A DNA stretch of 32,480 bases from a virus: the IMG/VR virus record IMGVR_UViG_3300008107_000688, positions 1 through 32,480 of that record; one strand, given 5' to 3'. The notes under the pieces were generated by a model. The model worked only from the letters and a program-made list of their open reading frames with translations, did no database searches and was not told the origin of the DNA. This document shows, piece by piece, positions 11,226 through 14,690 of the stretch. Made by a program: the position numbers and the translations under genes. Numbering within the stretch: the stretch's first letter is position 1; every line of letters starts with the position of its first letter.

Positions 11226-11274
11226 GGAACTGCCGGATGAATCGAACATCCGTACAACCATTGCAGTTCGGGGG
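11226..11274 (-). ncRNA. Structured leader E1
   Basis: Minus-strand order: CCCCCGAACTGC, a small CAA/TTG hairpin, a six-pair hairpin CGGATG-TTCGATT-CATCCG, then GCAGTTCC. GAACTGC and GCAGTTC pair to close a three-way junction. It occupies the whole gap between the stop of the 11276 gene and the 11028-11210 gene, ending 15 bases before the ATG. Confidence 0.65.
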
Positions 11275-11484: not shown

Positions 11485-11538
11485 AGGACTGCTTCCGGTC
11501 ACGAGCCGGATGCCATCGGTATGGGAGCAGTTCGGGGG
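11485..11538 (-). ncRNA. Structured leader E2
   Basis: Minus-strand order: CCCCCGAACTGCT, hairpin CCAT-ACCG-ATGG, hairpin TCCGG-CTCGTGA-CCGGA, then AGCAGTCC. The terminal P1 stem has seven pairs and one A-C mismatch. The inner stems differ in sequence from E1 and E3 but keep their form, including the seven-base loop. The ATG is 18 bases beyond. Confidence 0.65.
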
Positions 11539-12404: not shown

Positions 12405-13124
12405 TTACTTTTTAGGGGTTATTAATCCGGCCTCGATTAGTTCAACTGCCGTTCTACCATAGAATCCTTGCATTTGCCATACTAGGCCAGTATCTAAGAG
12501 GAATTGGAATGCATTCAGTACTTCCTGTTCTTCGGGTTCGTATCCGCAGAAGCCTTCAATGATGCTACATGCATCGTAAATTGTCATTTCCATTACAGAG
12601 TATCCAGTATACTCAGCCAACCATTCCGTAAAGGATTCTAAATCTCTTGTCTTGATAATTACATCGGAGGAAACAGAGAATACATTCGAGGTAAGTCCAA
12701 AGGCAAAAACCAGTTCAAAGGGGCATTCAATTTCTCCCTGGGCAATCTCTTCCACGAAGTCGTTAAACTTGTGTTTGTAGGCCACATCTGACCACTTACC
12801 AGTTGACCAACCCGAAGCAAGGGTAGTGTATCCCTCTTCGATTATTACATCGTGATAGCCTCGCCATGCATCGGTACGGACATATTTAAATCCAGTTACT
12901 CCGTTGGGTGAAGCCTCTTCCCAGTATTCAGCATCTCTGAAACCAAATTCCGTGCAATGGAGGTATTTTTTAGTTTCGCCATCCTTTACTACCAGTACGC
13001 TATTGGCGTAATTCCACGCCTCAGATTCGCAGGTTTCGCAGTAAGGATTGCCATCTTGATTAAAGTAGATCCCATAGTTCTCATTGATCTCTTGTTCGCA
13101 ACATTTACAGATTTCCATTTTCAT
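12405..13124 (-). CDS. Zinc-ribbon-containing hypothetical protein, 239 residues
   Basis: The N-terminus has a four-Cys zinc ribbon, C-x2-C (CKCCE, about 7-9) and C-x2-C (YCETC, about 29-32). A long middle part contains TEFGFRDAEYWEEASPNGV and VTGFKYVRTDAWRGYHDV. The C-terminus (about 205-239) carries LDTGLVWQMQGFYGRTAVEL, the same GLVW..QGF motif as the 11028-11210 protein. It is the largest gene of the early array. It may be a regulator or host-interaction protein. Function unknown; the zinc ribbon is visible, the rest is unassigned. Confidence 0.68.
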   Translation of the reverse strand: MKMEICKCCEQEINENYGIYFNQDGNPYCETCESEAWNYANSVLVVKDGETKKYLHCTEFGFRDAEYWEEASPNGVTGFKYVRTDAWRGYHDVIIEEGYTTLASGWSTGKWSDVAYKHKFNDFVEEIAQGEIECPFELVFAFGLTSNVFSVSSDVIIKTRDLESFTEWLAEYTGYSVMEMTIYDACSIIEGFCGYEPEEQEVLNAFQFLLDTGLVWQMQGFYGRTAVELIEAGLITPKK

Positions 13125-13140: not shown

Positions 13141-13305
13141 TTAATATTCAATTTTGTTACCTTGTTCATCGGTTACATTCTCTTCAATTACGCAGCACTG
13201 CTCTAGTTCAATAGCGTATATATCTAATTGGGGAAGTTGCTTAACTGCTGAATTAATTTTGTGGTTAAGACTGGCCGAAGCCAGTTTCGCAGATTTACTG
13301 CTCAT
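13141..13305 (-). CDS. Hypothetical 54-residue protein whose start lies in a hammerhead ribozyme
   Basis: MSSKSAKLASASLNHKINSA continues through LPQLDIYAIELEQCCVIEEN to KIEY. The ATG (13303-13305) overlaps the 3' end of the upstream gene by 11 bases. The first 12 codons are also the right half of a type I hammerhead, whose predicted cleavage point (13269/13268) falls inside codon 13. Self-cleavage would detach the start codon from the rest of the gene. Expression would therefore depend on the uncut RNA, or the frame is partly incidental. The C-terminal 35 residues look protein-like. No family recognised. Confidence 0.5.
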   Translation of the reverse strand: MSSKSAKLASASLNHKINSAVKQLPQLDIYAIELEQCCVIEENVTDEQGNKIEY

Positions 13306-13314
13306 CAGTTAACC
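13263..13314 (-). ncRNA. Type I hammerhead ribozyme (HHR-B)
   Basis: Minus-strand order: stem I GGUUAA (13314-13309); core CUGAUGA (13308-13302); stem II GCAG-UAAAU-CUGC (13301-13289); core GAAA (13288-13285); stem III CUGGC-UUCG-GCCAG (13284-13271); U16.1-C17 (13270-13269); then stem I UUAACC (13268-13263). Every canonical core base is present and all three stems are fully paired. The cleavage triplet is GUC, cutting between 13269 and 13268. The element spans the last codons of the 13295-13666 gene and the first codons of the 13141-13305 gene. Confidence 0.93.
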
Positions 13315-13666
13315 TTTTCTCATATTCATCTTGAAGTGCCTTTTCAAAGGCTTTTACCTCTTTCTTTAAAGAAGTTGGCAGATAGTCAGAAACGTGTCTA
13401 TAATCATGTATAGAATCATTTATGCTATTAATCAGAGCAATCAATTCTTCTAAAGAATTCTCAGAGATGTTTTGAATATTCATTGTATTAATTTGAAGCA
13501 ATTTTATTGCTCTATCGTCACCCTGTATGGCTTCGCTATTAATGTAGTCTAGCATTATTTCACTGGTGATTGTATAGCCATACTTATCAATCAACTCTTC
13601 TGCTTTTTCGCTTCCTTCAATCATTTTTTGGTCTAAAAAGTCGTAAAGAATGTCCCAATTATTCAT
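13295..13666 (-). CDS. Hypothetical 123-residue helical protein
   Basis: Start taken at ATG 13666 (MNNWDILYDFLDQKMIEGSE) because it lies 18 bases after the E3 leader, as in the sister genes; upstream codons of the same frame run into the leader. The protein is largely helical and acidic, with ITSEIMLDYINSEAIQGDD and a C-terminal coiled-coil-like KEVKAFEKALQDEYEKRL. Its last codons (RLTDEQ and the stop) form the 5' arm, the conserved core CUGAUGA and the start of stem II of hammerhead HHR-B, so the coding sequence is constrained by the ribozyme. Function unknown. Confidence 0.65.
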   Translation of the reverse strand: MNNWDILYDFLDQKMIEGSEKAEELIDKYGYTITSEIMLDYINSEAIQGDDRAIKLLQINTMNIQNISENSLEELIALINSINDSIHDYRHVSDYLPTSLKKEVKAFEKALQDEYEKRLTDEQ

Positions 13667-13683: not shown

Positions 13684-13737
13684 AGGAACTGCATTGGTCA
13701 CGAACCAATTGTCAAGCGGCCTTGAGCAGTTCGGGGG
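13684..13737 (-). ncRNA. Structured leader E3
   Basis: Minus-strand order: CCCCCGAACTGC, hairpin TCAAG-GCCG-CTTGA, hairpin ATTGG-TTCGTGA-CCAAT, then GCAGTTCC. P1 is a perfect seven pairs (13686-13692 with 13726-13732). This is the cleanest member: both inner hairpins have five perfect pairs. The ATG of the next gene (13666) is 18 bases downstream. Confidence 0.7.
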
Positions 13738-13812
13738 TTACATACATAACCCTAAGCACATGGCCGCAAATGCTATCAGCAGCCACATAATATCCTGTTG
13801 ATTCTTTTTCAT
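13738..13812 (-). CDS. Very small membrane peptide, 24 residues
   Basis: MKKNQQDIMWLLIAFAAMCL plus GLCM: a charged N-terminus and one hydrophobic stretch long enough to cross the membrane. The ATG overlaps the stop of the 13809-13940 gene as ATGA, which supports real translation. Single-span peptides paired like this can be holin- or toxin-like, but nothing here is diagnostic. Confidence 0.5.
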   Translation of the reverse strand: MKKNQQDIMWLLIAFAAMCLGLCM

Positions 13813-13940
13813 ATTGATTCTATTAAGGTTCGTAATGATTTCGCCACAATAGACTGAGGAAAGAATACGTAGGCGATAATCTGTGTCAGGTCAAAAAAGG
13901 CCACCATACAAAGGAGGCCAATGAGTAGTTTTTCTTTCAT
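13809..13940 (-). CDS. Small membrane protein, 43 residues
   Basis: MKEKLLIGLLCMVAFFDLTQ continues with IIAYVFFPQSIVAKSLRTLI: one or two hydrophobic segments (about 5-16 and 20-28) and a basic C-terminal part. The gene has an operator-like palindrome 16 bases upstream (13956-13974) and is coupled to the next tiny membrane peptide by an ATGA overlap. The pair may act at the host membrane early in infection. Function unknown. Confidence 0.5.
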   Translation of the reverse strand: MKEKLLIGLLCMVAFFDLTQIIAYVFFPQSIVAKSLRTLIESI

Positions 13941-13955
13941 TGTAATTAGTGTTTA

Positions 13956-13974
13956 AATCTCTAAAATAGATAGT
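13956..13974 (-). promoter_or_regulatory. Operator-like palindrome O3
   Basis: AATCTCT-AAAAT-AGATAGT, 16 bases upstream of the 13809-13940 start. It matches the site in the repressor intergenic region with the halves exchanged. Confidence 0.55.
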
Positions 13975-14211: not shown

Positions 14212-14385
14212 ATGCAACAAAAAATAGGTTCATAATCAACTAGTTATGGTATGTCCAATAATTTATAATATGTCAACACATACTCATGTACTAACCCAAT
14301 TGTTTAATCAGCATATTTTTTTATGCTAACCATATTGTACAACTAGCAGCTATAAGAACACAAATTTTATTCCCGCACGTATAAT
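14212..14385. other. Leader between HHR-A and the first early gene
   Basis: AT-rich and without genes. It contains a six-pair hairpin AGCATA-TTTTTT-TATGCT (14310-14327; loop all T on the plus strand, all A on the other), and CAACTAG/CTAGTTG-like repeats near 14240 and 14340. It would form the 5' part of the RNA released by HHR-A cleavage. Confidence 0.4.
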
Positions 14386-14441
14386 GTTAGCGTTTCGACC
14401 TCTTGGTCTCATCAGTAGTGAGATTATCACTAAACGCTAAC
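14386..14441 (-). ncRNA. Type III hammerhead ribozyme (HHR-A)
   Basis: Minus-strand order: stem III GUUAGCG (14441-14435); U16.1-U17 (14434-14433); stem I UAGUG-AUAAUCU-CACUA (14432-14416); core CUGAUGA (14415-14409); stem II GACC-AAGA-GGUC (14408-14397); core GAAA (14396-14393); stem III CGCUAAC (14392-14386). All core bases are canonical and all stems perfectly paired. The cleavage triplet is GUU, cutting between 14433 and 14432. It lies in gene-free leader DNA downstream of a TTTG/TATGTTTG promoter. Confidence 0.95.
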
Positions 14442-14442
14442 A

Positions 14443-14655
14443 AGTGGAGTCCGCCTCATCTTTTCGCCTATGGGATAGCTACGGATGAAGGCCGCTATGT
14501 CTCCCTTTTTCGTCTGCACGTTTATTCGCAATGGACACCGCTTAGAATAGTTTCTTTTCACCCTTGCAGGATACTCAGTCCTAATTGGCCGTCATTCAGA
14601 CTACTTGCTTAACAATAAATCGAAGAACTAGTGTCGTGGATAACTCCGTTGACAA
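14443..14655 (-). other. Structured 5' leader upstream of HHR-A
   Basis: No gene seen. As leftward RNA it folds into a long hairpin: GGAG (near 14502) pairs with CTCC (near 14448), GCCTTCATC with GATGAGGC (one bulge), and an inner CTAT-CCC-ATAG closes it. GTGGATAA on the plus strand (14636-14643) resembles a DnaA box. This segment would be cut away by HHR-A. Confidence 0.5.
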
Positions 14656-14657
14656 TG

Positions 14658-14690
14658 CAAACATACTAACGGCAATGCATACACTCCAAA
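14658..14690 (-). promoter_or_regulatory. Leftward early promoter (TTTG / TATGTTTG)
   Basis: On the minus strand TTTG (14690-14687), 21 bases, then TATGTTTG (14665-14658): a close match to the Bacteroidota -33 and -7 elements and spacing. Transcription would start near 14650 and run through the structured leader and HHR-A into the early genes. Confidence 0.65.

Follow-up and report, generated by a model that had tools for sequence, protein, structure and literature searches.

Hammerheads in phage DNA have been known since 2011, when Perreault et al. described hammerheads flanking prophage genes and proposed that they process phage transcripts; three arrays cut in vitro, one of them also in E. 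coli, and spliced or circular products were sought and none was found (PMC3088659). Those arrays resemble the locus described here in that several hammerheads of mixed type lie near single genes or short blocks of phage DNA, but stop-codon geometry, an order from type III to type I and tRNA-like elements do not appear in the available part of the paper (PMC3088659). In the present data, by contrast, gene junctions of at least 120 viral contigs share a single consensus type I module. The theta ribozymes of gut phages are likewise small, self-cleaving, found in Caudoviricetes and thought to process phage RNA, although they have a hepatitis delta virus (HDV)-like fold and have been proposed to trim the 3' trailers of phage tRNAs rather than to separate protein genes (PMC10879173). 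In retrozymes and satellite RNAs, tandem hammerheads also excise RNAs of unit length, but those units are circularized and replicate or retrotranspose, whereas the units considered here carry ordinary phage genes (PMC7761336). The reason why hammerheads adjoin particular bacterial and phage genes was still regarded as biologically unexplained in 2023 (PMC10085705). We found no earlier description, in the open-access literature, of hammerheads associated with stop codons or present in pelagiphages. Hammerheads beside prophage genes are the known part; their placement relative to stop codons, the succession of type III and type I, and the occurrence of tRNA-like elements at comparable junctions appear to be new.

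A type I hammerhead at the end of a phage gene

We analyzed a stretch of 32,480 nucleotides (the window) from the IMG/VR virus record IMGVR_UViG_3300008107_000688, whose relevant features are collected in Table 1. On the minus strand, positions 13314 to 13263 read GGUUAA CUGAUGA GCAG UAAAU CUGC GAA ACUGGC UUCG GCCAGU C UUAACC, which gives a stem I of 6 bp, a stem II of 4 bp and a stem III of 6 bp including A15.1-U16.1, with a UUCG cap, a GUC triplet and all 16 pairs intact. The core (C3 U4 G5 A6 N7 G8 A9 ... G12 A13 A14, A15.1-U16.1, H17) is complete. Both the fold and the R1 model leave stem I open and stems II and III capped, i.e., the type I topology, and the isolated 52-mer is predicted to adopt exactly this structure, with the cut expected between 13269 (C17) and 13268. 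When both strands of the window were scanned with strict three-way-junction criteria for this permutation, this site was the sole match, and R1, a covariance model of 40 hammerheads from other phages, scored it at 69 bits (E value of 1.7e-14 over 0.5 Mb), so that the match is more than a chance resemblance. The perfect type I hammerhead of the initial annotation was thus confirmed by reading, scan, fold and model, together with its coordinates, its cut site and the gene end and stop codon in its 5' arm.

Table 1 Features of the window discussed in the text
Feature	Position	Strand	Basis
Type III hammerhead, non-coding leader	14385..14442	-	Scan; R2 model; RF00163 below cut-off
43-aa gene	13809..13940	-	93% identical in L004
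tRNA-like mini-element with two arms and an acceptor-like stem of 7 bp	13686..13732	-	Scan; fold z -2.9
Upstream gene, 123 aa, ATG at 13666	13295..13666	-	Translation; homologues in L004 and L214
Type I hammerhead ribozyme	13263..13314	-	Direct reading; motif scan; fold; R1 model
54-aa ORF from core ATG	13141..13305	-	Translation; similarity to L011 protein
Next intact downstream gene, 239 aa	12405..13124	-	Translation; L214 homologue
tRNA-like mini-element, T-loop TTCGATT, between genes	11227..11269	-	Scan; fold z -2.86

The window copy of the type I hammerhead was not reported by Rfam at the gathering threshold, and no hammerhead match appeared in the type I region up to an E value of 10; the covariance check suggested in the initial annotation was therefore negative with the Rfam models and positive with R1. 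The topology and core of RF00163 (Hammerhead_1) are identical to those of the window copy, yet its gathering score was reached neither by this copy nor by any copy in 17 hammerhead-bearing loci, and tRNAs were all that Rfam detected in the window, in seven related loci and in these 17 loci. Since the copies of these 17 phage loci also went unreported, we take the silence of Rfam as a limit of its models. When the native flanks were included, stem I was predicted to be weak, with a mean probability of 0.16 to 0.20 with 0 to 12 nt of 3' flank and of 0.01 with 45 nt. Several clear members of the type I family folded equally poorly in their native flanks, so this calculation was dropped as a test of activity.

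The 5' half of the hammerhead encodes the final residues of the upstream gene, RLTDEQ, and its stop codon, a TAA located in loop II at +11 from C3, inside the family range (-20 to +13; see below). Homologues of this gene in L004 (27% identity) and L214 (44% over 57 aa) both carry a type I hammerhead at their 3' end. The L004 homologue runs into the hammerhead, ends in RLTDDA and has its stop in loop II; compared with the window, stems II and III are altered while the core and stem I are retained. L214 contains homologues of both neighboring genes, that of the 239-aa gene directly 3' of the hammerhead, with a near-identical hammerhead 5' half in between. There, the upstream gene stops elsewhere (TAG at -8) and the downstream gene begins with an ATG 36 nt beyond the cut; with the hammerhead kept and stop offset and ATG differing, it is the RNA that is conserved and not an overlapping protein reading. 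Relatives with both genes and a lost core, the case named beforehand as counting against the ribozyme, were not encountered: the core is retained in L214 along with both genes, and in L004 along with the upstream gene.

The initial annotation also had the bases of the ribozyme shared with a second, downstream gene. The core ATG does open a 54-codon frame, but its product resembles an L011 protein only from residue 20 on (57% over 28 aa). That protein is longer, begins at a start of its own without a hammerhead, and is matched only in its internal and C-terminal part. Residues 1 to 19 are read-through of the hammerhead and its flanking sequence, for which reason the ORF looks 5' deleted; it is probably a 5'-truncated remnant rather than a gene starting within the ribozyme. 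Sharing of bases thus holds for the end of the upstream gene and not for the start of the downstream one. The next intact gene has its start 144 nt further on, at 13124, so that the window lacks the start codon 0 to 45 nt past the cut that is usual in the family. Searches of the 137-aa and 54-aa proteins against viral_contigs found no relatives, and neither did the 54-aa ORF and local DNA against the phage collection. Altogether, the window hammerhead is genuine and most likely functional, sharing bases with the end of the upstream gene.

Conservation of the type I module in other phages

The consensus pattern TTAACTGATGA..GAAAC..GTCTTAA, with about 24 fixed bases, was found in at least 120 viral contigs (viral_contigs) and had 19 matches in genome_contigs, those with high model scores including Mucilaginibacter and Aquimarina contigs, while several of the 19 scored poorly with R1 and may be chance. 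The contigs compared are metagenomic and mostly fragments. A stem-specific pattern search provided a usable match in L002, and another, in L003, lay within a coding region, looked like chance and was discarded. Stems II and III are not fixed by the consensus pattern, and among the matches listed, which comprise 126 non-redundant copies, stem II pairs in 91 (19.5 after partner swapping) and stem III in 109 (8.7 after swapping). A structural alignment of 40 copies, whose rows were picked for paired stems II and III, kept 99.1% of the pairs, with a covariation score of 0.613 compared to 0.132 when shuffled. It contains many double changes, some of them in the outer pairs of stem I, which were neither searched nor selected for. 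Loop II is conserved as UNANU in at least 90% of the family and is kept in the window; no partner for a tertiary contact with the stem I region was identified. At the level of sequence comparison, this demonstrates that selection acting at the RNA level has preserved the stems and catalytic core of type I.

The position of the module relative to genes is also far from random. Among the matches listed, the stop codon of a long upstream ORF falls within -20 to +13 of C3 in 94 of 123 cases (16 at random positions), most frequently at -3 or +1, a peak that is partly built in because the motif itself has UAA at -3 and UGA at +1. The ATG of an ORF follows 0 to 45 nt past the cut in 104 of 123 (28 at random), at a median of 22 nt, and both features coincide in 87 of 120, again among the matches listed. 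The maps of L206, L121 and L214 read gene, hammerhead, gene, hammerhead, and every copy detected in G024 and G026 is confined to a single short region.

Within the phage family of the window, the type I module is patchy, being present in 3 of 17 related records at an E value of 0.01, one of them weak: L004 (42 bits, its stem II starting with a C-A mismatch), the record of L007, with three copies, and L012 (degenerate). The type I-like junction element of L012 (2460-2580, minus strand) has U at the C3 position, carries a very long insertion in stem III, and is possibly a dead or altered ribozyme. Hammerheads were also seen in the cultured marine phages HTVC019P (L258, KC465901.1), MEP301 (L260, MW452941.1) and HTVC131P (L261, OR420738.1). 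The records of HTVC019P and HTVC131P have no feature annotated under the hammerhead match, and an annotated gene of MEP301 ends in ribozyme loop II.

A type III hammerhead in the leader and tRNA-like elements at other junctions

The same strand of the window carries a second hammerhead, of type III, that was absent from the initial annotation. It has a GUU triplet, stem I TAGTGA/TCACTA, stem II GACC/GGTC and an open stem III. R2, a model of 14 type III copies that excludes that of the window, matched it at 14389-14438 with 54 bits (E value of 2.2e-12), and an RF00163 search of the window's record gave 16.5 bits at this site, below the cut-off. In the alignment of the 14 copies, 12 of 15 pairs show double changes. 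In most related contigs (recruited via terminase) that cover the upstream region, a type III copy stands ahead of the shared early operon; in L004, the first gene after it is the homologue of the 43-aa gene. Type III followed by type I on one strand was found in the window, L004, L002, L118, L129, L167, L199, L214, G004/record of L007 (where three type I copies follow) and HTVC019P, so that this order extends over relatives, one unrelated contig and a cultured pelagiphage; the opposite order, with type I upstream of type III, occurs in L124 and L093. A conserved non-coding leader, CGCCAAACC..TTAGGGTGTTGGG..GATTTATC, is located at about 14440-14690 (minus strand) of the window and in L004, L006, L012, L016 and L017, flanked on one side by a promoter-like sequence of Bacteroidota type and on the other by the type III hammerhead. 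It is clearest in relatives and has no Rfam counterpart.

Other junctions of the operon hold tRNA-like mini-elements, intergenic structures with a 7-bp acceptor-like stem, a T-arm and a T-loop that is often TTCGANT, placed at the same spacing to the neighboring genes, 5 to 9 nt after a stop and 16 to 22 nt before an ATG. They were not reported by ARAGORN or Rfam, and a structural scan gave 24 matches compared to 7 in shuffles, some of the matches being clearly in coding regions. That at 13686 lies 5 nt past a stop and 19 nt ahead of the ATG of the 123-aa gene. Further elements were recognized by eye on the minus strand of the window, with starts near 11536 and 9020, and in the relatives L006, L010, L011, L013, L016 and L021. 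The junction that bears the element at 13686 in the window is occupied by a type I hammerhead in L214, which suggests that tRNA-like elements and hammerheads may be interchangeable processing signals at operon junctions. The window and L004 are 94 to 98% identical in their best-matching stretches, and one homologous block (window 13727-13970, L004 992-1235) ends in L004 next to the type III hammerhead, which ends at 1236, and, on the other side, at 992, in the stub of a tRNA-like element. The block ends look as if cassettes had been swapped at RNA-processing signals.

Proposed role and alternative explanations

We consider it likely that the type I hammerheads are self-cleaving stop-and-cut punctuation in an early phage operon, giving rise to short mRNAs. 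As the sequences show, translation of the upstream gene ends in or just before the 5' half of the ribozyme, and the next gene normally begins some 22 nt past the cut. The nascent RNA would fold and cut itself after C17, leaving nearly the whole type I hammerhead on the upstream mRNA as a structured 3' end with a 2',3'-cyclic phosphate, and a short 5'-hydroxyl leader on the downstream mRNA. The leader type III hammerhead would play the mirror role, its bulk remaining attached to the first mRNA at the 5' side, and this placement of the bulk, upstream of the cut in type I and downstream in type III, suits mRNAs with structured ends when the order is III then I. Acting together, both types would divide one long polycistronic transcript into short mRNAs whose ends are either structured or short and defined, and we propose that each small early gene would therefore be translated and decay separately. 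More speculatively, termination at the stop codon would place the ribosome over the core and may thereby delay cutting.

The initial annotation had favored a translational off-switch, in which the downstream gene starts at the core AUG and a cut in codon 13 removes its start codon. The core ATG is indeed in frame with the 54-codon ORF, no other ATG lies ahead of the part homologous to L011, and among the raw matches listed, 10 of 148 have the core ATG (+3) as the start of their longest downstream ORF. We nevertheless hold this reading to be very improbable, as the ORF matches a longer protein only internally and C-terminally, its first 19 residues being read-through, and starts normally lie past the cut (104 of 123 among the matches listed); in L238, the core-ATG frame merely runs into a later ATG that is likely the natural start. 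That the window copy has decayed or misfolds, and is a remnant that no longer has a function, would agree with the 5'-deleted ORF fragment that directly follows it and whose sequence competes for stem I, and with the core-proximal defects of L004 and L012, but the core bases and 16 pairs of the window copy are perfect and its loop II retains the UNANU of the family, which makes this idea hardly credible.

The hammerheads might instead serve mainly as conserved junction sequence for swapping small early genes as cassettes, self-cutting keeping expression independent. The block shared by the window and L004 ends at a type III hammerhead (L004 1235) and at a tRNA-like stub (992), and copies are clustered in one short region in G024 and G026. 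Still, core, loop II and compensatory stem changes have been kept despite the divergence of the stems, and recombination alone needs none of them, so we regard this explanation as unlikely. Closure of the pieces between cuts into circular or rejoined mRNAs, whether the hammerhead or an RNA ligase of the host does the ligation, would fit the ends of the excised units: of 78 pairs of adjacent type I copies, 56 have unit ends able to pair 6/6, compared to 39 for random partners, although most of this excess may stem from phages reusing one stem I sequence. The remaining 22 of 78 units cannot re-pair, the 5' end of the window unit, which comes from the type III hammerhead, has no match, and Perreault et al. 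found no circular product (PMC3088659); such mRNAs seem highly doubtful to us.

Stop-and-cut punctuation by type I hammerheads could be part of a wider scheme, which we put forward only tentatively and judge rather unlikely as a whole, in which type III hammerheads in the leader, type I hammerheads that contain a stop codon and, as targets of host RNases, tRNA-like mini-helices are interchangeable punctuation marks that divide early operons gene by gene, the cut being gated by the ribosome terminating within the ribozyme. The junction geometry offers a testable answer to the question of why hammerheads adjoin particular phage genes: they mark gene ends, supply stop codons and would set mRNA ends. 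The covariance models recover copies missed by Rfam, and HTVC019P, HTVC131P and MEP301 are cultured carriers. If cutting occurs during infection, the virus would make short mRNAs from a polycistronic transcript without a protein nuclease.
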